From Flammeovirga pectinis (GTDB lineage Bacteria > Bacteroidota > Bacteroidia > Cytophagales > Flammeovirgaceae): DNA of 64,000 nucleotides. The notes below the pieces were generated by a model. It was not told the origin of the DNA. It saw nothing but the letters and a program-made list of their open reading frames with translations, and did not search any database. Both the position numbers and the translations under genes were made by a program. How positions within the stretch are numbered: the stretch's first letter is position 1; each line of letters opens with the position of its first letter. Shown in pieces: positions 10,433 to 59,571 of the stretch. The DNA is taken from assembly GCF_003970675.1 (NCBI RefSeq), contig NZ_CP034562.1, positions 868,001-932,000 of the forward strand, read 5' to 3'.

Positions 10433-11731
10433 TTATTTACAATATTCAAGCACTGCCTCTCGGATATGCGTAAAAGTTTCTTCTAATAACTCTTCATTTT
10501 CTTCTAATAGCGTTACTCTAAAACCTTGAAGTTCCGAGCAGAAAGAAGAAATAGGAACTACACAAACACCTTTTGCTGCCAATAGATAATACACAAAGCG
10601 TTTATCGAGTGGCATCTTTTCTTCTATCCAAGAAGAAAGCATTTCTGCTACTTTAGGGTTGTTTATTTGTAGTTCTTGACCTTCTTTTAATACCCCTTTC
10701 TTAAAAATGATGGTATTATAAAAGGCTCCGTATGTTTTATTAAATGTAAGCTGAGGTAAATCGCCTAAAAGATTGGCAATAATTTCTGCTCTTCTACCAA
10801 TCGCTTTATTTGCTTCCTCTCTGTAAGGTAGGTAGCGCTTATCGGTCATAATTCTAGGAATAGCCATTTGAGGTAACTTTGTAGAGCACACCTCAATCAT
10901 TTTGGCGTTATCAAGTGTTTGGCAGAGTGCATTAAACTGAATGTCATTATCTCTGTTGTAATACTCCATCCATCCACATCTAGAACCAGGCCATGGAAAT
11001 TCTTTAGAAATTCCTTTAAGAGCAATTCCAGGAACGTCTTCAATGTATTCTGCTAACATATGAGCTTTAGCACCATTGTAAGTTACATTAGAATAGATTT
11101 CATCTGATACTAAAAACAGATTAAATTCTTTTGCTATTGCTACAAAGCGTTCTAAAATTTCTGTAGGGTAAACCATACCTGTAGGATTATCTGGATTGAT
11201 AATTAAGATACCTACAATGTTTGGATTATATTTTATCTGAAGATACAAATCGTCCATATCTGGATACCAATGGTTTTCCGGATCGAGTTTGTATGTTAAA
11301 GGCGTTGTATTGGCGTGGGCGGCTTCTGCAGATGAGTGCGTAGAATAAGCAGGAGAGGGACCAATTATTCTAGATGTTGGTAATAAAAATTGATACAACT
11401 TAGAAATTGCATCACCTAGTCCATTAAAGAAAAGGATATCTTCTGCAGTAATTTGAGTACCTTTTAAAGCATTCGTTTTATCTGCAAGGAATTCTCTTGT
11501 CTCAAGAACACCTTTAGAATGACAATAGCCAAAAGAGCCATTTTCATTTAGAAGACCGGCAATAATATCACGCATCCATTTAGGCATTTCTGCATTTTTT
11601 TGGATCGGATCACCGATATTCTCCCAATAAATTTTCTGACCTAACGTTTTCAGTTTGTCAGCTTTCTTTACAATACCACGGATTTCATAGCTAAGTTCAT
11701 TAGCACCGTCTCTCAGTAATTTTTGTCTCAT
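10433..11731 (-). CDS. pyridoxal-phosphate-dependent aminotransferase, class I/II
   Basis: The 432-residue protein has a fold-type I aminotransferase layout. NPDNPTG (179-185) and SDEIYS (209-214) hold the cofactor-binding Asp and nearby Tyr, and GISKEFPWPGSR holds the Schiff-base Lys243 followed by the Arg of the active site. It is cytoplasmic and has no signal. It is probably an amino-acid aminotransferase (aspartate- or alanine-type); substrate cannot be fixed from sequence. The KEFPWPG context differs from the usual KTYR or KAFGM pattern of AlaA and AspC, so it is a separate subgroup. It is transcribed alone and has its own terminator. Confidence 0.85.
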   Translation of the reverse strand: MRQKLLRDGANELSYEIRGIVKKADKLKTLGQKIYWENIGDPIQKNAEMPKWMRDIIAGLLNENGSFGYCHSKGVLETREFLADKTNALKGTQITAEDILFFNGLGDAISKLYQFLLPTSRIIGPSPAYSTHSSAEAAHANTTPLTYKLDPENHWYPDMDDLYLQIKYNPNIVGILIINPDNPTGMVYPTEILERFVAIAKEFNLFLVSDEIYSNVTYNGAKAHMLAEYIEDVPGIALKGISKEFPWPGSRCGWMEYYNRDNDIQFNALCQTLDNAKMIEVCSTKLPQMAIPRIMTDKRYLPYREEANKAIGRRAEIIANLLGDLPQLTFNKTYGAFYNTIIFKKGVLKEGQELQINNPKVAEMLSSWIEEKMPLDKRFVYYLLAAKGVCVVPISSFCSELQGFRVTLLEENEELLEETFTHIREAVLEYCK

Positions 11732-11859
11732 CGCTCACTAAATAGACCATACAAGTCACGCCAATGCTTGTATAGACAGTTGATAATTAAATATTCTTCA
11801 AAATTGGGTAGGTATTATGAGAATATCAAAAGTATTTCCTTAAAAATGCAAAATTCCCA

Positions 11860-13314
11860 CTAATTAAGTCGAATCTCTTCGCTTCCTATAATTTCTGGAG
11901 TTTGTTCTCTGTTGTTTAATCGCCTAGCCATATAAGTTACATTATCTGTTAGGTAGGCTTTCATTTCTTTTACATCAACAATACCGTCGTTATTTTTATC
12001 TGCAGCACCCTGTATTCCTTTTAAATAATAATAGGTAAATAGAGAGTGGTATTTTTCGTTGTACCAAGAAGAAACTTGTTCTGATGCAGCCGATGTTAAA
12101 ACAACAGCATTTTCGTCTTTTAAAACTTTATTTTCTGTCTTAATAAAAACAGGTGATATACTTTTTAGTAACATTCCACCTTCAGATGCACCACTAAAAC
12201 AAGCATCTATAATTACCGTAAGGTTTTTGTATGGAACAGCCCCTAGGTTTTCATAGAATGTAGCAAGAGAATAACCATTAAATTGTATTAAAGAAGGGTC
12301 TGTGTCTACTGGTACAAAGTAACCTTTATTTGTTTCTGGGTTGGGTGCACCGTGTCCAGAATAAAAAATATAAACATCAGAGACATTTGGTTTCACGTAA
12401 TTGTAGAGTTTGCCTTTTGGATTGCCATTAATACCAAAAATGGCATTAAAATCTGCTTGTGTAGCATCTTCTTTAAAAATGATATTCCCTTCTTTAAATC
12501 CTAAAGTAGAAATAAGGTATTGTTTTACAATAAGCGCATCGTTAATAGCATATTTTACTTCTGGCACATCAGCATTTCTATAGGTTCTGTTGCCAATTAC
12601 AACAGCTACGGCATTTTCGTTTACCCTATTGTTTTTTGGTATATTCTGATCCACATCACTTAGTGGAAACGTTTCTGTTACAACAGTAGCTACCTTTACT
12701 TCTTCTACTTTACTTCCTTTAGGTTGCTTTAAAGGTTTTATTTCTTTTTTTGATGAATTTGGAGGAGCGATAGAAGGTATTAATAAAGTAGACAGATCAG
12801 TTTCTTTGCCATTTGATTTTGCCCAATTACATTCTTTTATAAATGCATTAAAATGTGTTTCAAAAATCTCGTTGGTAAATGATTTAATATCCGAAGAATA
12901 CCGCTTTGAAGACGTTTTCTTAAAAGTGACTAAGGCTTTATGTGTTGCGGCATCTTTATAAAAAAGATACAAATCCATATAATTCCCTTTTGTAGTTTTA
13001 TGGAGTTTATAAGCCACCTCTACATACGTATTTTGCCAACCACCTAACAACATCTGTCTTACCTCGTTATTGGATAAACTACAAACGTTTTTTGCTTTAA
13101 TTTCTTGCATTGGTGCTTTGGTATCAATTACTCTATACGCATTGTATTTATACACTTCTTCTAGCGCAGCAATAGCCATCTTGTTGTTGTAATAAAAATA
13201 ATTATCACACAAAGACTCTTCTTCTGGGGTATATGGAAGAATTAATATAGAATTCTGACCAATACAGACACCTATTTGTAAAATGAAAAATAGAGATAGT
13301 AATATTTTTTTCAT
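11860..13314 (-). CDS. exported caspase-fold (peptidase C14) protein
   Basis: The 484-residue protein has a signal peptide (MKKILLSLFFILQIGVCIGQ). Residues 20-170 form an N-terminal domain of unknown type and 180-230 a Lys/Pro-rich linker. The caspase-like domain (about 232-435) has AVVIGN at its start, catalytic His321 in YSGHG and catalytic Cys372 in IDACFSG. A Ca-binding-like loop, DKNNDGIVDVKE (439-450), follows in the C-terminal helix region. Both catalytic residues are intact, so it is probably an active cysteine peptidase with Arg/Lys or Asp preference. It acts in the periplasm or outside the cell. It is divergent from ppk1 across 162 bases. Confidence 0.85.
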   Translation of the reverse strand: MKKILLSLFFILQIGVCIGQNSILILPYTPEEESLCDNYFYYNNKMAIAALEEVYKYNAYRVIDTKAPMQEIKAKNVCSLSNNEVRQMLLGGWQNTYVEVAYKLHKTTKGNYMDLYLFYKDAATHKALVTFKKTSSKRYSSDIKSFTNEIFETHFNAFIKECNWAKSNGKETDLSTLLIPSIAPPNSSKKEIKPLKQPKGSKVEEVKVATVVTETFPLSDVDQNIPKNNRVNENAVAVVIGNRTYRNADVPEVKYAINDALIVKQYLISTLGFKEGNIIFKEDATQADFNAIFGINGNPKGKLYNYVKPNVSDVYIFYSGHGAPNPETNKGYFVPVDTDPSLIQFNGYSLATFYENLGAVPYKNLTVIIDACFSGASEGGMLLKSISPVFIKTENKVLKDENAVVLTSAASEQVSSWYNEKYHSLFTYYYLKGIQGAADKNNDGIVDVKEMKAYLTDNVTYMARRLNNREQTPEIIGSEEIRLN

Positions 13315-45830: not shown

Positions 45831-45848
45831 ATTAAAAAATTATCAAGA

Positions 45849-45879
45849 AAGCTGTTTCAGAAGTGGAACAGCTTTTTTT
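45849..45879 (+). terminator. terminator of the IscA/HesB gene
   Basis: AAGCTGTTTC (45849-45858) pairs with GGAACAGCTT (45865-45874) with one G-T pair, followed by seven T. Confidence 0.85.
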
Positions 45880-45948
45880 ATCACTAGCGTTTTTGAGGTT
45901 TTAGATCTATTGTGTAGTACTATTTTGTCCCAATCATTTATTTAAATA

Positions 45949-47835
45949 ATGAAACTATCCTTTATAAAACTATCAATAGTATTTATTTGTATGCTTTCTA
46001 GTGCCTTAATGGCAAAGAATACAAATAATATTGTTGAAATACCCATGTTACAGCAGAAGGTGTTTATTCCATCCTCATCAGTATTGGTATTAAAAGATCC
46101 TTCAAACGAAAAAACTTTAAAACAAGTAATTGCAGATTCCTTACAATTTGAATCTCTATCTAAAGACATGATATTTTTATCTGATGAAGCAGAGTTCTTC
46201 TGGGTAAAAGTACAATTAACTGGTAAAGCACTATCAAAAGATAGGTGGTTATTCGAAATCCCTGATAGTCATTTAGGTAGCGTAACTGCATTTATGAGTG
46301 TTGATGGTAGACCTACTGTATATTTAGAAGCAGCAGGTTATGATCATAAATTCTCAAAGCGTAAGTATCAACACAAAAATATAATCTTCCCTATAGATAA
46401 CATTAATGTTAACAATGGAGGAGTTGTAACGATTTACTTGAAATATGAATCAAAATTTAGAAATGTTCTTTTTTATAAACTCAGTAAAGTCAATACTTTT
46501 CTCTCTTATTCAAATACAGAATATTTATTGTTGGGGCTATATTATGGAATTTTAATCTGTCTAATCCTGTCTAGTATTCTCTTATATTTTAGTATTGGAG
46601 AAAAGACATTGATCTATTTAATTGGATTTCTTTTAACAAGTATACTTGTAGGTTTAACAGAAGACAATTTAGGTTCTCAGTACTTATTTGTAAACCAGCC
46701 AGAATTAAATTACCTATTGATGAAGTATGCCTCTACTTTGAGTATGCTTTCTATCGTTCTCTTATCGACCCACTTTTTAAAGATGCGAGAGAAGTATTTT
46801 AATGCATATATATCTATATGGGCGGTTACAATAGTTAATGCACTTTACTTCTTGATATTTAAAGGAATAAATGTATCTATTTGGTCTTTACCTACATTCT
46901 TAATTCCATTCATTATAATATTTATTTATTTACTTAAAGATATCAAGAAGGAAGAAACCAAAATCACTTACTTTCTTATTGGTTACGTTGTAATACTCTC
47001 AGGACTTACCCTTCAAGTATTACGTGTTTATGGAATATTTATTTCTGATAACATCATAGTTGTTTACGCTTTTAATTTAGGGCTCCTTTTAACAGGATTA
47101 TTTATGACACTTTCTCAGTTTGAAAAATTTAAAGTACTAAAAGAGGAAAAAGAGAAGGTACAGCTACAGTTAATTGAAGATTTAAAAGTACGTGAAAAAG
47201 TAATTGAAGATAAAGTAGTAGAACGTACCAATGAGATAGCAAAACAGAAAGAAGTTATTGATGTAAAAAATAAAGAACTTGAATGGGTTAACGACGAATT
47301 AAACAAGCAAAGATTACAGATTCAAAGCCTAAATAAAAAGCTTACCGTAGAAAACGAACAACTTATTGAAGATGTAGGGCATTTAGAAACAGCAAGGGTT
47401 TTAATGCAAGAAGTAACTTTTGAAGAGTTTGAAAAAATGTTTCCTTCTGATGAGATGTGCTACAATTATTTAGAAGAAATTAAATGGAAAGAAGGTTTTA
47501 CTTGTAAAAAATGTGGAGGAACAGACTACGCTAAAGGTACTGGCGTGAATTCTAGAAGGTGTAAAAAATGTAACTATAATGAATCTGTTACTTCTGGTAC
47601 TTTATTTCATAGGTTACACTTCCCAATTCAGAAAGCATTCTATATGGTGTTTATTGTTTTTTCTAAAGATGGAGATATCTCATCTACTAAACTTTCAGAA
47701 ATATTAGAAATGAGACAGAATACTTGTTGGAAGTTTTCTAAAAAGATTAAGGAATCTATAGAACTCAAAAAAGAGGTATTAGGATCTGAAGATTTACTAA
47801 AACAAAAAGGTTGGGAAGAATTGATTTTAAATTAA
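45949..47835 (+). CDS. 7TM-DISM membrane receptor fused to a transposase-derived zinc-ribbon/HTH domain
   Basis: The 628-residue protein has a signal-like N-terminus (to about 22), a periplasmic 7TMR-DISMED2-like domain (25-180), seven membrane helices (190-385), coiled coil (390-485) and a C-terminal domain (487-600). That last part matches the N-terminal half of IS1595/ISXO2-type transposases: a zinc ribbon with Cys519, Cys522, Cys538 and Cys541, then VTSGTLFHRLHFPIQKAFY and a helix-turn-helix (SSTKLSEILEMRQNTCWKF). The transposase catalytic DDE domain is absent; only 28 residues follow. I infer a membrane-bound one-component transcription regulator. It precedes a beta-glucan locus in the same direction by 318 bases. 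No inverted repeats flank it. Confidence 0.85.
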   Translation: MKLSFIKLSIVFICMLSSALMAKNTNNIVEIPMLQQKVFIPSSSVLVLKDPSNEKTLKQVIADSLQFESLSKDMIFLSDEAEFFWVKVQLTGKALSKDRWLFEIPDSHLGSVTAFMSVDGRPTVYLEAAGYDHKFSKRKYQHKNIIFPIDNINVNNGGVVTIYLKYESKFRNVLFYKLSKVNTFLSYSNTEYLLLGLYYGILICLILSSILLYFSIGEKTLIYLIGFLLTSILVGLTEDNLGSQYLFVNQPELNYLLMKYASTLSMLSIVLLSTHFLKMREKYFNAYISIWAVTIVNALYFLIFKGINVSIWSLPTFLIPFIIIFIYLLKDIKKEETKITYFLIGYVVILSGLTLQVLRVYGIFISDNIIVVYAFNLGLLLTGLFMTLSQFEKFKVLKEEKEKVQLQLIEDLKVREKVIEDKVVERTNEIAKQKEVIDVKNKELEWVNDELNKQRLQIQSLNKKLTVENEQLIEDVGHLETARVLMQEVTFEEFEKMFPSDEMCYNYLEEIKWKEGFTCKKCGGTDYAKGTGVNSRRCKKCNYNESVTSGTLFHRLHFPIQKAFYMVFIVFSKDGDISSTKLSEILEMRQNTCWKFSKKIKESIELKKEVLGSEDLLKQKGWEELILN

Positions 47836-47909
47836 AAAGGTTGCGCTTTTTTAGATTTATTAAGCGTTTGAATGTTAAAATTACATTTTTTTAAATGATA
47901 AAGAATCTT

Positions 47910-47926
47910 AGTGTATCTGATACGCT
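47910..47926. repeat. 17-base near-palindrome, candidate operator
   Basis: AGTGTATC and GATACGCT are inverted around one T, with a single mismatch pair. It lies 75 bases after the receptor-regulator gene and 228 bases before susC. It could bind a dimeric regulator; no binding evidence exists. Confidence 0.4.
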
Positions 47927-47927
47927 T

Positions 47928-47956
47928 TATATCTAAGTTGTTGATTTACAGATATA
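47928..47956. repeat. inverted repeat TATATCT/AGATATA
   Basis: Seven-base arms at 47928-47934 and 47950-47956 with a 15-base spacer, next to the near-palindrome. AT-rich arms make chance occurrence possible. Confidence 0.3.
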
Positions 47957-48101
47957 AATGACTATTTTTTTTAAGTGATATTTTTTTTTGGACTAAACAG
48001 TGCTGAATTTGTGATTTCGAAAGAATAAGTTGATGTTTGAATTGTAAAGAATACACGACGTCAAGTATTAACTACAGTTTTATAGTAAAGTAAATAAGAA
48101 A

Positions 48102-48138
48102 TCTATCGCAAAACTTATTTAAAATCTATTCTATCGCA
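48102..48138 (+). repeat. direct repeat TCTATCGCA in the susC leader
   Basis: Two exact 9-base copies start 28 bases apart (48102 and 48130), the second ending 15 bases before the susC ATG. Both are in the probable 5' leader. Confidence 0.4.
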
Positions 48139-48153
48139 TTTTAATTTTTTGAA

Positions 48154-51100
48154 ATGAAATCACTTCTACAATCAAAACAACTAGTAACCTTATTTTTAGG
48201 TGCTTTGTTGTTTATGTCAGCGGGCTTAGTCTCTGCCCAAGAACGTATCGTTTCTGGTACAATTACAGACTCAAAAGACGGAAGCGCTCTACCAGGTGTA
48301 AACGTAAAAATTAAAGGATCAACAACAGGTACAATCACCGATTTTGATGGTCAGTTTAAACTATCTTTAGATCCAGAAGCTTCAGAGATTATTTTCTCTT
48401 TTATTGGATATACTGCAAAAACTGTTTCAATAGGACAGCAAACTACATTTAATATTAAATTGGATGAAGACGTAGAACAGCTAGAAGAAGTAGTTGTTGT
48501 AGGTTACCAAGTTCAAAAGAAATCAGTTGTAACAGGTGCAATTGCATCAGTTAAATCTGAAGACATTACACAAACTCCTGTACAAAACGCAGCACAAGCA
48601 TTACAAGGTAAAACACCAGGTGTTCTTGTAACTCCAGTTTCTGGTCAGCCAGGTGCAGGTATTGACATTCGTGTACGTGGTACAGGTTCTAACGGTTCTA
48701 ACTCTCCGTTATACGTAGTAGATGGAGTACAAATGGATAACATTAACTTCTTAAACCCTAATGATATTGAATCTATTGAAGTATTAAAGGATGCAGCTTC
48801 TGCAGCAATTTATGGTTCACGTGGTGCAAACGGTGTTGTTTTAGTTTCTACTAAGAAAGGTAAAGAAGGAAGAACAATCGTTTCTTACGATGGTTACTAT
48901 GGTGTTCAAGAGCCTTGGAGAAAAACTCCATTGATGAATGCTAATGAGTATATGATGTTCCACAACGAAGGAGCAATCAACGCAGGTAATGCACCAGCAT
49001 TTTCAGCAGATGAAATGGCTAAAAATACTACAGATACTAACTGGCAAGATGAAATGTTCCAATCAGCACCAATTCAAAGCCATAACGTACAAATGGCAGG
49101 TGGTACTGAAACATCTCAATTTATGGCATCAGTTGGTTATTTTGGTCAAAAAGGTATTGTAGCTCCAGAGAAATCAAATTTTGATAGATATACAATTCGT
49201 TTAAATTCTTCTCATAAGATTTCAGACTATTTTAAAGCAGGTTCAAATATCACTTTCTCTAGAGAAGAAAAGGCAGGTATAAATGAGCAAAACCAATTCG
49301 GTGGTGTTTTACAGAATGCTTTATTGCATGACCCACTTACAACAGTATGGGAAGATGATGCAACAAAAATTCAAGAATACGATGCATTACCAGTTAGACC
49401 AGCAAATAAAGATGGCCGTTACTATGGTATATCTGATAGAGGTTTAAGAGAAGTTGTTAACCCAATGGCACGTATTAATAATACATACAGTGAAGATGCA
49501 AGTAACAAATTCTTAGGAAATATTTTTCTTGAAGTAACTCCAGGTGTTAAAGGCTTACGTTTTAGAACAGATTTTGGTGTTGATGTTGGAAACTGGTATA
49601 ACAGAGGTTACAATCCAGAAGCATATTATAATGAAGTAAATCAAGTGGCAACTTCTGGTGTTAACCAACAAGCTGGTAACTACTTTACTTACCAATGGGA
49701 GAATATATTAACATACGATTTAGATCTTGGAGAAGGTCATAAATTAAATTTCTTAGCAGGTACTACATTACGTAATAGCTCAGGAAGAGATCAAGGTTCT
49801 TCAAGAAATAACTTACAAATTCCAGGATGGCAATATGCATGGGTATCTAATGGTGCTGATGATGAGACACAGAAAGGATGGGGTGGTAATTGGGAACACC
49901 GTTTAGTATCTTTCTTTGGAAAAGTTGATTACAACTACAAAGATAAATACCTTTTAAGTGGTACAGCTCGTTACGATGGTTCATCTAACTTTGGACCTAA
50001 CAATAAATTTGGTTTCTTCCCTTCGGTACAAGCTGGATGGATTGCATCTAATGAAGAGTTCTTGAAATCTAGTGATGTTGTTAACTTCTTAAAACTAAGA
50101 GCTTCTTGGGGTAAAGTTGGTAATGAAAATATTGGTTCATTTGGTTACTTAGAATTATTTGGTAGCACACCTTCATATCCAATAGGTACAGCACAAAACA
50201 TGGTACCAGGTTATGGTATTACTAGAATGTCTAACCCAGATTTAAAATGGGAAGCAGCAGCAGAAGTTAACATTGGTATTGATGCTGGTTTCTTAGACGA
50301 CAAAATTACAACTACTTTAGATGTTTACTCTAGAGAGCGTCAAGATTTATTAGGAACACAACCTGTACCTGGTTTCACAGGTGTTGGAGGTCCTTTATAT
50401 AACTTAGGTAGTGTAACAAACAAAGGTATTGAAGCATCTGTTACTTATTCGAAAAGAGACGGTGACTTCCACTTTGATATCACAGCAAACGCTTCTTATA
50501 ACGATAATAACGTTACAAAAATTGCAAACGGTGATGGTAAAATTTACGGTCCTGGTTTATTCCAAACTGAAGGTCAGTTAATGATGGAAGAAGGACATGC
50601 ACTTCCTTACTTCTACGGTTTCAAAACTGCTGGTATCTTCCAAAATCAAGGTGAAATTGATGCTCACGCAAAAGAAGGTAACGCAATTCAGCCAGATGCT
50701 CAACCAGGTGATATCAGATATGTTGATATTAACGGTGACGGTAAAATTGACAACAATGATAGAACAGATATTGGTAACCCAGTTCATGCATGGATGTATG
50801 GTCTTAACGTAAGAATGGATTACAAAGGGTTTGATTTCTCAATGTTCTGGCAAGGTCAAGCTGGTGGTCAGTTAGTAAACGGTACATTACGTAACGATTT
50901 AACTCAAGGTCAAAATTACCCAGTTCGTTATTTAAACCGTTGGACGGGTGAAGGAACAACAAATGAATTCCCTCGCTTTACTTACGCTGATAACAACAAG
51001 AACATGACAAGGTTAAATGATATGGTACATGTTGAAGATGCTTCTTACTTAAGATTAAAGAACCTTCAAATTGGTTACACATTACCTCAGCAACTTTCAC

Positions 51101-51276
51101 AAAAAGCGGGTATGAGTAAATTAAGAGTGTATGTATCAGGTAACAACTTAATCACTATTACAGATTACTCAGGTATGGATCCTGAAGTAGCACATGGTGG
51201 TTCTTGGATCGGATTCGATAATGGATCTTATCCACAAGCTAGAGCTTACCTACTTGGTTTAAATGTTACATTCTAA
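48154..51276 (+). CDS. susC: SusC/RagA TonB-linked outer-membrane transporter
   Basis: The 1040-residue protein has a signal peptide ending AGLVSAQE (near 29), a carboxypeptidase-regulatory-like domain (about 32-110), TonB-box-like LEEVVVVGYQVQKKS (around 115-128), the plug (about 135-235, with IRVRGTGSNGSNSPLYVVDGV features) and a long barrel ending YLLGLNVTF. It imports beta-glucan oligosaccharides with the SusD lid encoded 14 bases downstream. Full length for the family. Substrate is inferred from the GH genes that follow. Confidence 0.95.
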   Translation: MKSLLQSKQLVTLFLGALLFMSAGLVSAQERIVSGTITDSKDGSALPGVNVKIKGSTTGTITDFDGQFKLSLDPEASEIIFSFIGYTAKTVSIGQQTTFNIKLDEDVEQLEEVVVVGYQVQKKSVVTGAIASVKSEDITQTPVQNAAQALQGKTPGVLVTPVSGQPGAGIDIRVRGTGSNGSNSPLYVVDGVQMDNINFLNPNDIESIEVLKDAASAAIYGSRGANGVVLVSTKKGKEGRTIVSYDGYYGVQEPWRKTPLMNANEYMMFHNEGAINAGNAPAFSADEMAKNTTDTNWQDEMFQSAPIQSHNVQMAGGTETSQFMASVGYFGQKGIVAPEKSNFDRYTIRLNSSHKISDYFKAGSNITFSREEKAGINEQNQFGGVLQNALLHDPLTTVWEDDATKIQEYDALPVRPANKDGRYYGISDRGLREVVNPMARINNTYSEDASNKFLGNIFLEVTPGVKGLRFRTDFGVDVGNWYNRGYNPEAYYNEVNQVATSGVNQQAGNYFTYQWENILTYDLDLGEGHKLNFLAGTTLRNSSGRDQGSSRNNLQIPGWQYAWVSNGADDETQKGWGGNWEHRLVSFFGKVDYNYKDKYLLSGTARYDGSSNFGPNNKFGFFPSVQAGWIASNEEFLKSSDVVNFLKLRASWGKVGNENIGSFGYLELFGSTPSYPIGTAQNMVPGYGITRMSNPDLKWEAAAEVNIGIDAGFLDDKITTTLDVYSRERQDLLGTQPVPGFTGVGGPLYNLGSVTNKGIEASVTYSKRDGDFHFDITANASYNDNNVTKIANGDGKIYGPGLFQTEGQLMMEEGHALPYFYGFKTAGIFQNQGEIDAHAKEGNAIQPDAQPGDIRYVDINGDGKIDNNDRTDIGNPVHAWMYGLNVRMDYKGFDFSMFWQGQAGGQLVNGTLRNDLTQGQNYPVRYLNRWTGEGTTNEFPRFTYADNNKNMTRLNDMVHVEDASYLRLKNLQIGYTLPQQLSQKAGMSKLRVYVSGNNLITITDYSGMDPEVAHGGSWIGFDNGSYPQARAYLLGLNVTF

Positions 51277-51290
51277 GAATTGATTCAACA

Positions 51291-52928
51291 ATGAAAATTA
51301 AACATATATTAATCGCAGGTGGTCTTGCATTGGGTTCATTATCAATGACATCTTGTGCTGATTACTTAGAGCTTCAACCAACGAATGCTCAAACTTCAGA
51401 TACTTTTTTCAGATCTTCTACAGAAGCAAGACAAGCATTAGTAGGTATCTACGAGAAATTACGTTCAGATTACAATGGTGCTCCTAACAGTACACCAATG
51501 TTTGATATGGCAATGGGTGATGATGCTTATGTTGGTGGAGATCCATCTGGTACAGATATGATTTACTACCAACAAATGAGTAAGTTCCAAGCGCAAACAA
51601 ATAACGAAGCTGGACAAGCAGCTTGGAATAAATGTTTTGGTGGTATACAGAGAGCAAACACTTTGTTAGCCAACTACGATAAGATTGAGTTTACTACAGC
51701 AGAGACTGAAATTCAATCTCAGTATAAAGGAGAGGCAACTTTCCTAAGAGCACACTACTACTTTGAATTAGCTCGTTTATTCGAGAACATTCCAGTATTT
51801 ACTGTTCCTTTAAGTGGTGATGAGTGGAAAGCAGTAGAGCAATCTACAGTAGATAATACATATGCTACAATTGCTAAAGACATTATGGATGCAATTCCAT
51901 TAATGGCAACAGCAATTCCTGAAGGAGAAGAAGGACGTTTAAATCAGTTTGCAGCAAAAGCAGAATTGGTTAAAATCTTTATGTTCTACACAGGTGTTTA
52001 TGGTAAATCTGAACTACCTGTTTTAGACGGGACTGCAATTTCTAAGGCGGATATTATCACAATTGCAGATGATGTGATCACTAATTCGGGAGCTACTTTA
52101 GCGACTAATTACGAAGATCTATTCAACCAGAGTGGTAACTACAATAAGGAAGTTTTATTTGAAATTCCTTTTGCAAACACAGGTTCAGGTGATTGGGGAG
52201 ACTGGTCTTACGGTAGCATTTTCTGTCAAATGTCTGGACCTAGAGGGTACAATACAGATCTTCTTGCTCAAGGCTGGGGTTTTACTTCTCCTTCAAGAGA
52301 GCTAGAAGCAGCTTATGAAGCGAATGATTCACGTAAAGCAGCAACATTAGTATATGCGAAAGATTTGATTGATTTAAGTGGTTCTGTGTATCAAGCACAG
52401 TATAACTTTACCTCAATGCATTCTAACAAGTATACAACACATGGTTGGAATAAGGCTACGGTTAATGTTGAGTTAAACTGGGCACAAAATTATCATTACA
52501 TTCGTTTAGCTGATATCTTATTATTAGCAGCTGAATTAAATGTGACAACAGATGCAGGTAAGGCATTAGGATATTTTAACCAAGTAAGAACTCGTGCTGG
52601 TTTAGCACCAAAAGGAGCAATTACTATAGTTGATATCCAAAACGAAAGAAGAACTGAGTTAGCATTAGAAGGACATAGATACTTTGATGTTTTACGTAGA
52701 GGCTTAACAGCAGCAGCAGCGGAACTAAATGTAACAGGTTATACATTAACTCCTCCAACTGATACCGATCCATCTTATGTAGATGATAATGGTAATAATT
52801 TAACTGGAGATGTTGGTAAAGCAGATTCTTACAATGTATCATTCGATGCAGCAAAAAGAGGTTTCTTACCTATTCCACAAGTTGAAGTAGATTTACATTC
52901 AATGTTAAAGCAAAACGCTGGTTACTAA
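51291..52928 (+). CDS. susD: SusD/RagB surface glycan-binding lipoprotein
   Basis: The 545-residue lipoprotein has lipid Cys22 (SMTSCADYLEL). The SusD pattern is visible: YLELQPTNAQTSDTFFRSSTEA near the start, KGEATFLRAHYYFELARLFENIPV (the TPR-like helix with R-A-x-Y-Y) and ERRTELALEGHRYFDVLRRG near the end. It forms the lid of the SusC channel at the cell surface and binds the glycan. Gap to susC is 14 bases and to the next gene 25, so one transcript. Confidence 0.95.
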   Translation: MKIKHILIAGGLALGSLSMTSCADYLELQPTNAQTSDTFFRSSTEARQALVGIYEKLRSDYNGAPNSTPMFDMAMGDDAYVGGDPSGTDMIYYQQMSKFQAQTNNEAGQAAWNKCFGGIQRANTLLANYDKIEFTTAETEIQSQYKGEATFLRAHYYFELARLFENIPVFTVPLSGDEWKAVEQSTVDNTYATIAKDIMDAIPLMATAIPEGEEGRLNQFAAKAELVKIFMFYTGVYGKSELPVLDGTAISKADIITIADDVITNSGATLATNYEDLFNQSGNYNKEVLFEIPFANTGSGDWGDWSYGSIFCQMSGPRGYNTDLLAQGWGFTSPSRELEAAYEANDSRKAATLVYAKDLIDLSGSVYQAQYNFTSMHSNKYTTHGWNKATVNVELNWAQNYHYIRLADILLLAAELNVTTDAGKALGYFNQVRTRAGLAPKGAITIVDIQNERRTELALEGHRYFDVLRRGLTAAAAELNVTGYTLTPPTDTDPSYVDDNGNNLTGDVGKADSYNVSFDAAKRGFLPIPQVEVDLHSMLKQNAGY

Positions 52929-52953: not shown

Positions 52954-54366
52954 ATGAAAAAATATATATATTCATTCTTAAGTTTAGTTGTTCTTTTAGG
53001 AATGACAGCTTGTACTGAAGATAAACCAGATGTAGGACCAGCGCCTACATCTGATGATGTAACGTTTACTATGCAGCCTACTGCAGATAACCCTAACATC
53101 ATTGAATTTACAAATACCACTTCTGGATCAATTGCTTATTGGTCATTTGGAACTGGTGCGTCAGCTAAAGGAGATCAAGTATCTGCAGAGTATGCTGTTA
53201 AAGGAGATTATGAAGTAAGTCTAATGGTAGTTACTAAGGGTGGTCAAGCGACTTCAACTCAAACTATCACTATAGCAAATACAGACTATGCTTTACTTAA
53301 TAGAGCTGATTATAATTTTCTAACAGGTGGTGCTGATTCATTGAATGGAAAAGGTTGGAAATTTGATAAAATGACTACTGGTCATATGGGTATTGGTGAT
53401 CCAGCTGAATCAACACCAAATTGGTGGGCAGCTAATGCTTTAGATAAAGATGGTAGAGGTGCTTATGATGATTTGATGAGATTTAACTTAAATGGCTTCA
53501 AGTATGATCTAACTAATAATGGTGATACCTATGCTAAGAATTATGAAAGAGACTTCTTTACTTCTAGAGGTGGTACATTAATTTCAGAGGATGATGATGA
53601 TACTTGGGCAATCACTTTTGATGATCAATCTAATTGGAATTGGTCAATATCTGAGCGCGATGGAAAGAGTTACCTTCAGTTTAGCGGAGATGGATTTCCA
53701 TCATGGCAAGTTGGTGGTTCACAAGAATATGAAATTCAAACTTTGAACGAAGATGAATTATATTTACGTACAATTGGTGGAGATGGAAATGCTTGGTATT
53801 TAGGATTTATCCGCGAAGGTTATGAAAGACCAGTGGTTCCTCCAACTCCAAAGCCTTATGAATCAAATGATTTATTTGATACATTCATGGGATCATCATC
53901 AGACGTTTTAAACCTTGTTTCTGATGCAGGTTTAGCATTTACTGATAATTTCGAATTTAACGCTTCTCCTGCAAGTCCATCACAATTTGTAGGTAAATAT
54001 GAAAGAGTATCTGGAGATAATCCATGGCAAAACCTTCAATCTGAATTACCATTTAGAATTGATTTAACATCAAGAGCTGTGTTTAAAATGAAAGCTTATC
54101 TTCCATCTACAAATGATTATTCTGGAGATTTAGCTCAGACAGTAGTAGTTAAGCTACATGATTCATTGCAAGGAGGAAACTCTTGGCAAACACAAGAACA
54201 AGTTGTTCACACAATAACACAAACTGATACTTGGGTAGAGTTAACATTTGATTTCTCTGCAGTATCTTCAAGAACTGATTTTGATAAAATTATTATCCAA
54301 ATTGGAGGAGAAGGACATCAAGTACCTGGTACATTCTATATCTCTGATTTTAGATTAGAACAATAA
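52954..54366 (+). CDS. PKD-domain surface glycan-binding lipoprotein (SusE/SGBP position)
   Basis: The 470-residue lipoprotein has lipid Cys20 (GMTACTEDKP). A PKD domain spans about 35-107 (FTNTTSGSIAYWSFGTG). Residues 115-290 look like a beta-sandwich with many aromatics (WKFDKM, TPNWWAAN, WNWSIS, SWQVGG), and 320-470 like a second carbohydrate-binding module ending TFYISDFRLE. It probably holds beta-glucan at the surface next to SusCD. No catalytic residues are evident. A strong terminator follows. Confidence 0.8.
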   Translation: MKKYIYSFLSLVVLLGMTACTEDKPDVGPAPTSDDVTFTMQPTADNPNIIEFTNTTSGSIAYWSFGTGASAKGDQVSAEYAVKGDYEVSLMVVTKGGQATSTQTITIANTDYALLNRADYNFLTGGADSLNGKGWKFDKMTTGHMGIGDPAESTPNWWAANALDKDGRGAYDDLMRFNLNGFKYDLTNNGDTYAKNYERDFFTSRGGTLISEDDDDTWAITFDDQSNWNWSISERDGKSYLQFSGDGFPSWQVGGSQEYEIQTLNEDELYLRTIGGDGNAWYLGFIREGYERPVVPPTPKPYESNDLFDTFMGSSSDVLNLVSDAGLAFTDNFEFNASPASPSQFVGKYERVSGDNPWQNLQSELPFRIDLTSRAVFKMKAYLPSTNDYSGDLAQTVVVKLHDSLQGGNSWQTQEQVVHTITQTDTWVELTFDFSAVSSRTDFDKIIIQIGGEGHQVPGTFYISDFRLEQ

Positions 54367-54442: not shown

Positions 54443-56800
54443 ATGAAAAATATTTTTGTAAAAGGACTTGCAACAGCGGCTCTTTGTTCTGTACTTTATG
54501 GATTTAATTCGCCAGAAGTTCCTCAGAAACAAAAAGAGAATATTGAAATAGTAATGAATAGTAACTTATCAATTGAAGAAAAAGTTGATAAGATATTAAT
54601 GCAGTTAACTTTAGAGGAAAAAGTGGGTCAGATGACTCAGATAACTCTAGATGTTATTACCAAAGGAGAGAATGTATTTGTAAGTGATGAGCCTTTAGAA
54701 CTTGATAAAAAGTTACTTGAAGAGGCTATCAAAAAATATAAAATTGGGTCTGTATTAAATACAGCCAATAACAGAGCTCGTACTCCTGAAAAGTGGAATG
54801 AAATCATTACACAAATTCAGAAGGTAGCTATGAAAGAAATTGGAGTTCCAGTATTGTATGGTGTAGACGCAATTCACGGAACTACGTATACGGCTGGAGC
54901 AACATTTTTTCCACAACAAATTGGTATGGCAGCAACATGGAATCCTGAATTAAATCGTCAGGGTGCTTCTGTAACTGCTTATGAAACTAGAGCTAGTTCA
55001 ATTCCTTGGGATTTTTCACCGGTTTTAGATATGGGGAGAAACCCAGCATGGCCACGTATTTGGGAAACATACGGCGAAGATGTTTATTTAACTTCTCAAA
55101 TGGGTATTGCTGCAATTGATGGTTACGAAGGAAAAGACAATGATTTGTCAGATCCAACAAAAGTAGCTGCTTGTATCAAACACTTTATTGGTTATGGTAG
55201 CGAACGTTCTGGTAAAGATAGAACACCTTCATACTTGCCAGAAATTGAATTAAGAGAGCATTATTTACCTTCTTACAAAGCTGCAATTGATGCAGGAGCT
55301 CATACTATTATGATCAACTCCGGAATTATTAACGGAGTTCCAGTTCATGCTAGTTATGAGATGTTGACTAAACTTTTAAAAGAAGAACTAGGCTTTGAAG
55401 GTTTAGTAGTGACAGATTGGGCAGATATTGAAAACCTACACAATAGAGATAAAGTTGCTGTATCGCATAAAGAAGCAGTAAAACAATCTATTAATGCAGG
55501 GATTGATATGTCGATGGTTCCTTATAACTTCGATTTCGCTCCTTACCTTATTGAGTTAGTGAACGAAGGTGAGGTACCAATGTCAAGAATTGACGATGCG
55601 GTAAAAAGAATATTAAAAGTGAAAATGGAATTAGGCTTATTTGAAAAGCCTGCTCCTAAAAAAGGAGATTATCCTAAATTTGGAAGTAAAGAGCATGAGC
55701 AAGTTGCTTACAATGCTGCTTCTGAATCGATCACTTTATTAAAGAACGATAAGGGGATTTTACCTTTATCAAAAGATTCTAAAATTTTAGTAGCGGGTCC
55801 TAACGCAAACTCAATGCGTACATTGAATGGGGGTTGGACATACTCTTGGCAAGGTGAAAAGACAGAAGAATTTGCTCAAGATTACAATACAATTTTAGAG
55901 TCTGTTCAAAATGAATTTGGAAAAGACAATGTGAAATTTGCTTCTGGAGTAGAATATAAGCACGATGGTTTATATCACGAAGAACAAAATATTGATATTG
56001 ATGCAGCAGTAAAAGCAGCGGAAGGTGTTGATGTAATTTTACTTTGTTTAGGAGAGAATACATATACAGAAACTCCTGGTAACTTACACGATTTGTATAT
56101 TTCACAAAATCAAAGAAAGTTAGCAGAAGCTCTTGCAAAAACAGGAAAGCCTGTAGTGTTGGTATTAAATGAAGGACGTCCTCGTTTAATCTCTCAATTT
56201 GAAGGTGATATGTCTGCAGTTGTTCAGACTTTTTTACCTGGTAATTTTGGTGGAGATGCTTTAGCTGATATTTTATCAGGTGATGTAAACCCAAGTGGTA
56301 AACTACCTTATTCTTACCCTATGTACCCTAACTCATTAGGAACATATGATCATAAGCCGTCAGAAGCTTCTGAAAAAATGGAAGGTATGTATGATTATAA
56401 TTCATCATTGCCATTCCAATACCCATTTGGATTTGGTTTAAGTTATACAACTTACGAATATTCAGATATTAAAATTTCTTCAGAATCTATTCTTCCAAGT
56501 GCAGATTTTACAGTATCTATTACAGTAAAAAACACAGGTAAAGTAGAAGGTAAAGAAGTTGTACAGTTGTATACAAAAGACCTTTATGCTTCTATCACAC
56601 CAGATAATAAAAGGTTAAGAAGATTTGAAAAAATCACACTTAAGCCAGGAGAATCAAAGGTTGTTACTTTTGAATTGAATGGAAAAGATTTAGCTTTTAT
56701 TGGTGCTGATAATAAGAAGCTTGTTGAAGCTGGTGATTTTAAATTAATGATTGGAAATCAATCAAAAGGATTTAAAGTTTCAGAATCAATTTCATTCTAA
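54443..56800 (+). CDS. bglX: GH3 beta-glucosidase, exported
   Basis: The protein has 785 residues from the ATG at 54443; a TTG at 54428 in frame is less likely. A signal-like N-terminus (NIFVKGLATAALCSVLYGF) precedes the GH3 N-terminal barrel, with IHGTTYTAGATFFPQQIGMAAT-type features (YGVDAIHG), KHFIGYG and INSGIINGVPVHAS. The nucleophile is Asp325 in VVTDWADI. The second GH3 domain (about 400-640) and a C-terminal Fn3-like domain (690-785) follow. It cleaves oligosaccharides from laminarin to glucose, probably in the periplasm. BglX-like length. Confidence 0.9.
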   Translation: MKNIFVKGLATAALCSVLYGFNSPEVPQKQKENIEIVMNSNLSIEEKVDKILMQLTLEEKVGQMTQITLDVITKGENVFVSDEPLELDKKLLEEAIKKYKIGSVLNTANNRARTPEKWNEIITQIQKVAMKEIGVPVLYGVDAIHGTTYTAGATFFPQQIGMAATWNPELNRQGASVTAYETRASSIPWDFSPVLDMGRNPAWPRIWETYGEDVYLTSQMGIAAIDGYEGKDNDLSDPTKVAACIKHFIGYGSERSGKDRTPSYLPEIELREHYLPSYKAAIDAGAHTIMINSGIINGVPVHASYEMLTKLLKEELGFEGLVVTDWADIENLHNRDKVAVSHKEAVKQSINAGIDMSMVPYNFDFAPYLIELVNEGEVPMSRIDDAVKRILKVKMELGLFEKPAPKKGDYPKFGSKEHEQVAYNAASESITLLKNDKGILPLSKDSKILVAGPNANSMRTLNGGWTYSWQGEKTEEFAQDYNTILESVQNEFGKDNVKFASGVEYKHDGLYHEEQNIDIDAAVKAAEGVDVILLCLGENTYTETPGNLHDLYISQNQRKLAEALAKTGKPVVLVLNEGRPRLISQFEGDMSAVVQTFLPGNFGGDALADILSGDVNPSGKLPYSYPMYPNSLGTYDHKPSEASEKMEGMYDYNSSLPFQYPFGFGLSYTTYEYSDIKISSESILPSADFTVSITVKNTGKVEGKEVVQLYTKDLYASITPDNKRLRRFEKITLKPGESKVVTFELNGKDLAFIGADNKKLVEAGDFKLMIGNQSKGFKVSESISF

Positions 56801-56886: not shown

Positions 56887-57735
56887 ATGAAAAGAATATT
56901 ACTACTAGCTATTACAGCCTTATTTTTTATTGGTTGTACGTCAAAACAAAAAACTAAAGCAGTAAACAATGTAATACAAGATACATCGGGGAAATACCAA
57001 TTGGTATGGTCTGATGAGTTTGATGTAGAAGGAATGCCTGATACAACAAAATGGAGTTATGATGTGGAAGGAAATAATTGGCAATGGGGTAATAATGAAC
57101 TGCAAGCATATACATCAAGTAGACCGCAAAACGTACAAATACGTGATGGAGTCTTAGAAATTACTGCCATTAAAGAAAAATATAATGATCCAGTTTCAAA
57201 TAAAACATTTGATTATACATCTACTAGATTAGTCTCTCAAAATAAAGGAGATTGGTTGTACGGTAAATTTGTAATTAGAGCAAAATTACCATCAGGTAGA
57301 GGTACTTGGCCTGCAATATGGATGTTACCAACCGATTGGAAATATGGTAAATGGCCTAATAGTGGTGAAATTGATATTATGGAACATGTTGGTTATGAGA
57401 AAGACAGTATTTATGCATCAGCACATACTACTTCTTATCATCATTCGATAGGAACTAATAAAACAAAGTCAATTGCTATTAAAGATGCTGAAAGTGAATA
57501 CCACGAATACATTGTAGAGTGGGGTCCAGAAGAATACAGTGTCTTTGTAGATAATCAGAAATACTTCACTTTTAAAAACGAACACAATACATATAAAGAA
57601 TGGCCTTATGATCAAAGATTCCACATGATTCTTAACCTTGCTGTAGGTGGAATGTGGGGAGGACTTAAAGGTATAGATGAAAAAATCTGGCCTCAGACAC
57701 TTTATATTGATTATGTTAGAGTATATCAGAAATAA
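56887..57735 (+). CDS. GH16 beta-glucanase lipoprotein (laminarinase-like)
   Basis: The 282-residue lipoprotein has lipid Cys17 (FFIGCTSKQ). A single GH16 domain fills about 38-282. The catalytic motif is EIDIME with Glu161, Asp163 and Glu166; the extra Met is the beta-bulge typical of laminarinases. GTWPAIWML and WPYDQRFHMILNLAVGG are the usual flanking segments. It is anchored to a membrane, probably the cell surface, and cuts beta-1,3-glucan inside the chain. Closely similar to the next gene product, 12 bases downstream. Confidence 0.9.
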   Translation: MKRILLLAITALFFIGCTSKQKTKAVNNVIQDTSGKYQLVWSDEFDVEGMPDTTKWSYDVEGNNWQWGNNELQAYTSSRPQNVQIRDGVLEITAIKEKYNDPVSNKTFDYTSTRLVSQNKGDWLYGKFVIRAKLPSGRGTWPAIWMLPTDWKYGKWPNSGEIDIMEHVGYEKDSIYASAHTTSYHHSIGTNKTKSIAIKDAESEYHEYIVEWGPEEYSVFVDNQKYFTFKNEHNTYKEWPYDQRFHMILNLAVGGMWGGLKGIDEKIWPQTLYIDYVRVYQK

Positions 57736-57747
57736 TTAAGCTACGCT

Positions 57748-59571
57748 ATGAAAAACTTACTTTTAACTTTACTTACTTTATTACCATTTACCATTTTTGG
57801 TCAAGATGATTGCTATGAAATGGTATGGTCTGATGAATTTAACTACTCTGGAGCACCTGATGCTGAAAAGTGGGGGTATGATACTGGTGGAGATGGCTGG
57901 GGTAATAACGAAGATCAATATTATACAGATCGTTTAACTAACGCTCAAGTAGCGAGTGGTAAACTAAAAATTACTGCTAGAAAAGAGAATTATAAAGGCA
58001 AATATTATACTTCGGCACGATTGGTTTCTAAAGGTAAAGGAGATTGGTTGTACGGTAAAATTGTGGTAAGAGCAAAATTACCAACAGGGCAGGGTACATG
58101 GCCTGCAATATGGATGTTATCTACAGATTGGGAATATGGTGGATGGCCTGCAAGTGGTGAAATTGATATTATGGAACATGTAGGGTATGATCCTAATGTT
58201 GTGCATGGTACGGTACATACAGAATCTTACCATCACTCTATTAATACGCAAGTAGGTAAACACATAGATGTAAGTGATGCTACTTCTAACTTCCATGATT
58301 ATATTTTAGAATGGGATGAGAATAAAATTAAGTTGTATGTTGATGATACAAACTATTTTACATTCACAAAACACGGAACTTACAAAGAGTGGCCTTTTGA
58401 TAAACAATTTCATTTACTCCTAAATATTGCAATGGGAGGTAATTGGGGTGCTGCTGGCGGTCCTACTGATGATACAGCTCTTCCTGCATCAATGGAAGTA
58501 GATTATGTGAGAGTTTATCAGAATACAACTCCTCAGATGTCTATTAGTGGAGCCTCTTTTGCTGATAAATCTACAACAGAAACTTATTCTGTAGATGGTG
58601 TAAATGGTGTTGTTACTTGGGAAGTGCCCAATGGTGCATCTATTGTAAGCGGACAATCTACTAATACAATTACTGTAGCTTGGTCTGATACTGCAGAGAG
58701 TGGAGATATAAAAGCTGTTGTAGTGGGTAATTGCGATACATATACTTCTACATTTAATGTAAAAGTAATTCAAGGAATGCCTTCTACACCTCAAGTATCT
58801 TTTGAACCAGTAACTGCAAATGGAGATTTACTGTGGAGTGTACCGGAAAATTTTGAAGGTACATTTTCTTTAAATGGAAGTGATACAGTAAGTTGTGTGT
58901 TATTTGATGTGGATGATCCTGCAACAAATCCATATATCTATTATTCTTTTGATGAGATTTTAGATTTAAATGGTCATACTAATTTTACTATTGATTTAAA
59001 ATTCAAAGAGGGGCTGTTCCCTGATCAAATGCGAGTTGATTTATCCAATGAAAGCGGGGATGATATTAGTGGAGATAATTTTAGAATTAGATCTGATGCT
59101 ATGCAGGTTGATTGCAATATTTGGAGATATACTTATTCTTTTGACCCTAATGAACTTAATTTAAGTAGAGTTGGAGGTATTAAGTTGTATATAAATTATG
59201 GCTTTTCTGCTGCAATGAGAGGTGGTATAGAAATATCAGATTTTACATTTAATACAGAGAGCCAAAGCAACGAGCAAATATCTACAGATAATTCATGTGG
59301 TTGCATTGATGATATTCCATTGTCTGCCGACGGTTTTGTAGCAACTAAATATGTTATTGCTCCAAATCCATCAAAATCGAATCAGACATTAACAATATAC
59401 GGTAGTAGTGTGAGCGATGTGTCTTTATTTGATCTACAAGGTAGATTGATTATTGAATACACAGAGGTTAAACAGAATAAAATAGTTTTGCCTCATCTAT
59501 CAAAAGGGATTTATGCTATACGAGTAGTAGGCCAACAAGGTGCTTACACAACTCAGTTGATTATTAATTAG
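57748..59571 (+). CDS. multi-domain GH16 beta-glucanase with type IX secretion signal
   Basis: The 607-residue protein has a signal peptide (to about 19), GH16 domain (22-260) with catalytic Glu138, Asp140 and Glu143 in EIDIME, a PKD/Ig-like domain (262-342), a beta-sandwich that looks like a carbohydrate-binding module (345-505) and a C-terminal type IX sorting domain (about 533-607, YVIAPNPSKSNQTLTIYG ... LPHLSKGIYAIRV). It is exported across the outer membrane to act outside the cell or on its surface. Its GH16 part shares long identical stretches with the preceding gene, pointing to tandem duplication. Confidence 0.9.
   Translation: MKNLLLTLLTLLPFTIFGQDDCYEMVWSDEFNYSGAPDAEKWGYDTGGDGWGNNEDQYYTDRLTNAQVASGKLKITARKENYKGKYYTSARLVSKGKGDWLYGKIVVRAKLPTGQGTWPAIWMLSTDWEYGGWPASGEIDIMEHVGYDPNVVHGTVHTESYHHSINTQVGKHIDVSDATSNFHDYILEWDENKIKLYVDDTNYFTFTKHGTYKEWPFDKQFHLLLNIAMGGNWGAAGGPTDDTALPASMEVDYVRVYQNTTPQMSISGASFADKSTTETYSVDGVNGVVTWEVPNGASIVSGQSTNTITVAWSDTAESGDIKAVVVGNCDTYTSTFNVKVIQGMPSTPQVSFEPVTANGDLLWSVPENFEGTFSLNGSDTVSCVLFDVDDPATNPYIYYSFDEILDLNGHTNFTIDLKFKEGLFPDQMRVDLSNESGDDISGDNFRIRSDAMQVDCNIWRYTYSFDPNELNLSRVGGIKLYINYGFSAAMRGGIEISDFTFNTESQSNEQISTDNSCGCIDDIPLSADGFVATKYVIAPNPSKSNQTLTIYGSSVSDVSLFDLQGRLIIEYTEVKQNKIVLPHLSKGIYAIRVVGQQGAYTTQLIIN

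Follow-up and report, generated by a model that had tools for sequence, protein, structure and literature searches.

SusR is a membrane sensor that ends in a C-terminal DNA-binding part and acts as an activator, and the direct repeats predicted for it lie 67 or 77 bp apart, a spacing explained there by a dimer on one face of the DNA; the average repeat spacing reported for HTCS regulators is 21 bp (PMC3878776). Receptors of the 7TMR-DISM type, such as RetS, NicD, and RgsP, join a DISMED2 domain and a seven-helix membrane bundle to a kinase or a GGDEF/EAL output, and the DISMED2 domain of NicD is linked to carbohydrate binding (PMC8544897). Other 7TMR-DISM proteins, reported from proteobacteria, carry ChiS-family DNA-binding domains (PMC8092284). 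The receptor described here shares DISMED2 and 7TM with RetS, NicD, and RgsP but ends in a zinc ribbon and a helix-turn-helix (HTH), and its predicted DNA-binding end is a domain different from that of the ChiS family. On the best reading, it is a one-component regulator of the SusR-like kind that is tethered to the membrane and obtained its DNA-binding domain from a transposase, with both DNA binding and the ligand being predicted.

The receptor is encoded on the forward strand, as are all window features given below, by a single open frame (45949..47835; ATG start; 628 aa) in the 64,000-nucleotide stretch of Flammeovirga pectinis DNA that was analysed (the window). Pfam revealed a periplasmic 7TMR-DISMED2 domain (residues 44 to 173; 46078..46467; 2.2e-15), a 7TMR-DISM_7TM domain with seven membrane helices (residues 191 to 388; 46519..47112; 6.7e-23), and a Zn_ribbon_IS1595 domain (residues 499 to 543; 47443..47577; 2.7e-9) with CKKC motifs at residues 519 and 538, and all three models scored above their cut-offs. 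The membrane helices were also present in the AF2 model and in the hydropathy profile, which showed one leading hydrophobic segment followed by seven more. In the full-length AF2 model (alignment of 68 rows; mean pLDDT, 86.7), an unbroken helix from residue 374 to 472 carried the last membrane helix into a coiled coil (about residues 395 to 472; 47131..47364), and a poorly modelled linker (residues 468 to 487) led to the C-terminal domain, which reached a pLDDT of 94.0 when modelled alone. The DISM sensor, the seven helices, and the coiled coil in one frame, as noted in a preliminary description of this DNA, were borne out by Pfam, hydropathy, and AF2. By Foldseek, the periplasmic domain resembled that of RetS (3jyb; E, 6.8e-6; TM-score, 0.72 on the target).

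Behind the ribbon, an HTH bundle (residues 560 to 611; 47626..47781) was recognized by model helices at residues 560 to 572, 579 to 586, and 590 to 611 and by a weak match of residues 557 to 605 to the NCBIfam IS1595 transposase model NF033547 (3.5e-4; 20.5 bits against a cut-off of 75). Foldseek and a PDB sequence search returned no solved-structure match to the whole C-terminal domain and matched only sub-parts of it, several of these matches being ribosomal ribbons, and the domain is not strongly basic (23 K+R against 22 D+E). Kinase, receiver, GGDEF, AraC, and DDE domains were all absent from the Pfam listing of the protein, and DDE_Tnp_IS1595 (PF12762) gave no match at E ≤ 1, consistent with the earlier observation that the nuclease part is missing. 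A single weak PADLOC match (E, 0.024) was discounted.

To compare the C-terminal domain with transposases, 60 receptor C-termini, including that of the window, were aligned by hhalign with 21 transposase-type N-termini, and this gave a probability of 100 and an E value of 3.1e-46 over 121 columns, the HTH part being aligned throughout. Together with the Pfam ribbon match, this upheld the resemblance of the four-Cys ribbon and HTH to the front of IS1595 transposases that had been proposed before. The receptor shares the ribbon and HTH with IS1595/ISXO2 transposases, in which they are N-terminal, but lacks their DDE domain and terminal repeats and carries the module fused behind a receptor. An alignment was built of the window protein and 67 frames chosen from the 81 ribbon/HTH frames of named loci, all of them 7TM-positive, omitting near-duplicates, two frames without a 7TM match, and some others. 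Two CxxC pairs were found in all 68 members; 7TMR-DISM_7TM was likewise present in 68/68, partly by choice since members were picked among frames positive for this profile. At E ≤ 0.01, DISMED2 was found in 67/68 and Zn_ribbon_IS1595 in 58/68, and PF12762 was absent among the 17 Pfam families detected in these proteins.

In a tree of 112 such domains, a branch with an SH-aLRT value of 99 split 70 receptors, four propeller proteins, and a 236-aa protein from 27 transposase-labelled rows, nine degenerate soluble relatives, and one truncated protein. A single capture of the transposase domain is the simplest reading of this tree but is not proved by it, the tree being a quick one, midpoint-rooted and built on 136 columns with no bootstrap. 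Beforehand, three rows that were duplicates had been removed, as had domains that were partial or scored low. The preliminary description had proposed that a transposase module was domesticated as the phosphorelay-free output of a membrane-tethered regulator. This proposal is supported by the profile match, the absent DDE domain, the phylogeny, the conserved architecture, the gene context, and the conserved spaced direct repeat described below, with DNA binding itself being a prediction.

The receptor belongs to a large, widespread family and is not a singleton. A survey of genomes for the architecture, as suggested in the preliminary description, showed that it is not a one-off: the own genome holds three full copies including the window gene, the other two being 45% identical. 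A three-sequence profile of the ribbon/HTH domain, which also recovers transposases, matched 102 of the 241 genomes in the order, and a pattern scan across named genomes confirmed 203 relatives, of which 80 were kept. Relatives came from Flammeovirga, Flexithrix, Pedobacter, Mucilaginibacter, Belliella, Echinicola, Roseivirga, and others, genera that we take to belong to the Bacteroidota. In four proteins of about 1000 aa (L077, L252, L253, and L254), the same C-terminus is preceded by Reg_prop and Y_Y_Y domains, so that the module is joined to an HTCS-type propeller sensor; L077 and L252 exceeded the ribbon cut-off, L254 fell below it, and L253 was recognized solely by the custom profile. A further relative in the own genome (L062:8110-8817; 236 aa) consists of one membrane helix, a coiled coil, and the ribbon/HTH, contains no sensor domain, and is divergent from a GH18-GH19 chitinase gene.

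The own genome also encodes a 7TM-DISM receptor that ends in a LuxR-type (GerE) HTH (L163:8095-9672; 23.8 bits against a cut-off of 23.5), another one-chain membrane regulator. The preliminary description named kinase, GGDEF, LytTR, and phosphatase domains as the normal ends of 7TM-DISM proteins; DNA-binding ends have precedent in the ChiS-family domains and in this LuxR-type protein. Elsewhere in the genome (L260:5008-7980, 10579-12621), a Reg_prop/Y_Y_Y protein with a terminal LuxR-type HTH was observed, with a susD-like gene and a GH65 enzyme in the same region; it pairs sensor and output in yet another way.

We then examined the gene neighbourhood. The window receptor directly precedes a beta-glucan utilization locus comprising a susC-like TonB-dependent transporter with Plug and CarbopepD_reg_2 domains (48154..51276), which is the predicted start of the target operon, a susD-like glycan-binding protein (51291..52928; SusD_RagB, 3.4e-30), a PKD-domain protein (52954..54366), a GH3 enzyme (54443..56800), a GH16 enzyme (56887..57735), and a second GH16 enzyme with a Por_Secre_tail domain (57748..59571). 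From family knowledge, we take this gene set to be the one expected for beta-1,3-glucan. In the fetched loci, 97 receptors were followed by a gene (including the propeller protein L077, omitting three short ribbon frames, and with 20 of the regions chosen by hand); a same-strand susC was the next gene in 36 of them and lay within three genes downstream in 46; the other 51 had none in that interval. After clustering, susC was next in 31/85 clusters at 95% identity, 20/40 at 70%, and 6/20 at 50% (single linkage), and in the pattern-scan loci alone it was next in 24/77 and within three genes in 34/77. The background frequency of susC next to other genes in the fetched regions was 19/1305, and in a control of 19 ribbon-less 7TM-DISM frames from 20 regions, susC was next in 0/19 and within three genes in 1/19. 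These data suggested that the receptor probably controls the neighbouring beta-glucan utilization genes.

In the chosen loci without an adjacent susC, the neighbours included GH81, GH16, GH18, GH3, GH9, and GH10 enzymes, and a scan of ten neighbours from eight chosen loci turned up HipA, a lyase, DUF2339, or CinA in four of the loci. One of the two own-genome paralogues faces a divergent GH81 gene, and the other precedes pfkB, with PCMD-domain genes upstream. Four members of the genus (L066, L069, L070, and L071) keep the receptor orthologue with susC not adjacent; a patatin-type gene, identified in L066, takes the place of susC in these four.

Within the genus, the gap between receptor and susC contained TTTTTTAARTGATA twice, exactly 80 bp apart, in 5/5 members with susC at this place, and the DNA between the repeats had diverged while the repeats were kept. 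In the window, the two predicted operator half-sites are TTTTTTAAATGATA (47887..47900) and TTTTTTAAGTGATA (47967..47980), each a match to the 14-bp pattern, and the second ends 173 bp upstream of the susC start codon. A shorter block, TGTTAAAAT, was also conserved in the gap of these five members; a palindrome near 47918 (GTATCtGATAC), attractive by eye, was rejected since it is not kept in other members of the genus. The gap between the own-genome paralogue and pfkB contained TTTTTAAGTGAT twice at 80 bp, and that between the other paralogue and the GH81 gene contained TTTTTAGATGGAT and, at a spacing of 79 bp, TTTTTAAGTGAT; a second genome of the genus (G005) shows both arrangements as well, each at 80 bp.

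A search for pairs spaced 76 to 82 bp in nine genus genomes yielded eight matches, and the reversed-pattern control yielded none. The eight comprised five susC gaps, two pfkB gaps beside the paralogue, and one GH81 promoter in G003, where no receptor was present within the 3-kb locus; since the pattern was defined with the susC gaps and the pfkB gap of the own genome already in view, fully new matches numbered two, one in the pfkB gap of G005 and the other in the GH81 promoter of G003. The four genus members without an adjacent susC had no exact spaced pair. When up to three mismatches were allowed at exactly 80 bp, the own genome gave five matches (control, 0): two were already known, one, with two mismatches, lies ahead of a gene for 1634 aa that matches a GH2 TIM barrel in its N-terminal part, and the remaining two, each with three mismatches, had no evident carbohydrate link.

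To look beyond the genus, we collected 45 receptor-susC gaps, an intervening gene being allowed, of which 38 of at most 900 bp formed 27 clusters; where susC was the next gene, the gap measured 230 to 867 bp (median, 312; 36 cases). The motif fitted to the 27 clusters was ATTGTTTTTTAAGCGTAT, which shares the core TTTTTTAARYG with the Flammeovirga pair. In a leave-one-out analysis, the best site exceeded the 95th percentile of shuffles in 23/27 clusters and the second site in 20/27, a test that is not fully independent because some of the training gaps, those from Pedobacter, are partly orthologous. The spacing of the top two sites was 62 to 82 bp in 14/27 clusters compared with 11.3% in shuffles, and the spacings gathered at 76 to 81 bp (11/27), at 64 to 66 bp (3/27), and near 90 bp (3/27). 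For 17 control susC promoters with no receptor within three genes, the corresponding counts were 0/17 for the best site, 0/17 for the second site, and 1/17 for the spacing, and the top-scoring control, L146, reached 8.7, near the threshold of 9.26.

With a looser spacing test, the receptor gaps and the controls came out less well separated (12.5/27 cases against 7.8/30 controls, some of the controls being near a receptor), and a scan pooled over the 27 clusters peaked at 22 and 67 bp and not at 80 bp. A single preferred spacing from the pooled scan was rejected on this ground, as only the per-sequence best sites gather at 62 to 82 bp. The wider motif scored the window's own pair poorly: when the window was left out, its best matches were other sites (9.9 and 5.5), and the true pair of L065, likewise left out, scored only 4.5 and 3.1. 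The own GH81 gap held a site of 13.3 bits, ATTGTTTTTTAAGTGATA, and 12 of the 46 receptor loci without a susC gap had an adjacent site of at least 11 bits, about 2.9 being expected at the own-genome rate. Among the propeller proteins, L077 had a site in its own susC gap (10.7 when left out), and L252, L253, and L254 had sites of 12.3 to 13.4 in a neighbouring gap, not facing susC. The maximum beside the transposase-type loci L246 to L251 and L256 was 10.5, and among the nine degenerate soluble relatives L243 reached 12.0. When transposon ends were sought for comparison with the operator, the identical stretch shared by the transposase copies L246 and L247 stopped within the gene, so that it revealed no ends of an element, and the motif scored low there.

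Based on these results, we propose that the receptor, as a one-component system in the inner membrane, regulates transcription of a beta-1,3-glucan (laminarin-type) locus, acting by sensing, dimer signalling, repeat binding, and activation, a reading to which we assign a probability of roughly 0.78. The periplasmic DISMED2 domain and the 7TM bundle would sense a glucan breakdown product, and the signal would be transmitted along the unbroken helix and the coiled coil in a dimer, as extrapolated from the monomer model. Two IS1595-derived zinc-ribbon/HTH domains could then bind the direct repeats 80 bp apart before susC, and this binding would switch on transcription of the susC, susD, GH3, and GH16 genes; the paralogues may act likewise on the pfkB operon and the GH81 gene. 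We also consider it rather likely that such receptors represent an additional class of polysaccharide-locus regulators in the Bacteroidota, next to the SusR-like, HTCS, and ECF sigma/anti-sigma systems. This class would have arisen by one ancestral capture of an IS1595 DNA-binding module, radiated by sensor exchange (7TM-DISM, HTCS-type propeller, or bare membrane helix), and kept a recognizable long-spaced direct-repeat operator from which targets are predictable genome-wide by sequence.

The transposase-like C-terminal end might instead reflect a recent chance fusion, an assembly artefact, or the remnant of a transposon insertion, an explanation that we regard as barely credible. In all nine genus genomes, counting the own, the gene follows the same upstream neighbours, and 79 of the 81 ribbon/HTH frames of named loci, an unpicked count, carry the 7TM profile, the two exceptions being frames of 219 aa, located at a contig end, and of 296 aa. 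The own genome had no PF12762 match at E ≤ 0.001, and none of the 11 imperfect inverted pairs found in region 45831 to 48153 flanked the gene with one arm outside either side, in line with the lack of flanking inverted repeats noted earlier. An assembly artefact and a recent transposon insertion were rejected on the genus-wide conservation, the architecture, and the absence of terminal repeats and of PF12762; the receptor gene is no recent insertion.

It is also unlikely that the repeats serve another regulator, with the ribbon/HTH binding, e.g., protein or RNA and the receptor merely travelling with the locus. A zinc ribbon does not by itself imply DNA binding, and several of the sub-part fold matches were ribosomal, but the HTH part aligns with transposase N-termini along its whole length. 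Single exact sites fit such a regulator in that 11 of the 14 in the own genome lie outside the window and the GH81 gap, 7 of these 11 being intragenic, which made single sites uninformative; all eight exact spaced pairs in the genus, however, lie in promoters beside a receptor gene or at GH81. The wider motif was missing from the 17 control susC promoters and occurred near all four propeller-sensor versions, although three of these sites do not face susC. We likewise consider it improbable that the protein represses transcription or serves as a constitutive anchor for a DNA loop: sites 80 bp apart could loop the DNA or block the promoter, the second lying 173 bp before the susC start, but SusR, a membrane sensor with predicted repeats of similarly long spacing, is an activator (PMC3878776).

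The preferred reading, that of a ligand-activated one-component activator, places the receptor close to SusR-like regulators, with which it has in common a periplasmic sensor, a cytoplasmic C-terminal DNA-binding end, a position beside susC, and predicted direct repeats of long spacing. The 67 or 77 bp given for SusR (PMC3878776) compares with 80 bp in the receptor's genus and with 76 to 81 bp (11) or 64 to 66 bp (3) among the 27 gap clusters, and this long spacing common to SusR and the receptor family suggests that membrane-tethered regulators of glycan loci may share a DNA geometry. Two SusR-like proteins inferred from context in loci with GH66 (L276 and L279) and standing in for SusR had DUF6377 and weak TPR matches, no ribbon, and no 7TM-DISM domain, and hhalign found no homology between their C-termini and the receptor domain (probability, 0.2%). 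This comparison with two stand-ins gave no support for assignment to the SusR sequence family; by analogy, the receptor would work like SusR. HTCS regulators, which likewise control polysaccharide loci, share their Reg_prop/Y_Y_Y sensor with the four propeller proteins, but the receptor has no histidine kinase, receiver, or AraC domain by Pfam.

Relative to the preliminary description, a large family, likely polysaccharide-gene targets, and a specific candidate operator are added. Many members of the Cytophagales and Sphingobacteriales degrade algal and plant glycans. If the reading is correct, the receptors beside many glycan loci could be assigned to a class with a predicted operator and a regulon open to testing (the laminarin-type locus and the unlinked GH81 gene), and the family would clearly exemplify, in bacteria, how the DNA-binding end of a transposase became a receptor output, with sensor swapping. 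In the literature searched, a scope that excludes subscription journals and bioRxiv, no paper combining 7TMR-DISM and IS1595 was found, and the matches listed held no description of a ribbon/HTH 7TM-DISM family.

The same ribbon/HTH occurred in another setting in genome G397, which encodes nine soluble proteins of about 300 aa (L237 to L245). The DDE domain exceeded the Pfam cut-off in two of the three scanned, and the first two catalytic-motif patterns failed in all nine. These relatives cluster with L249, a transposase that appears intact, and this suggests that the module was domesticated a second time, in a separate event.
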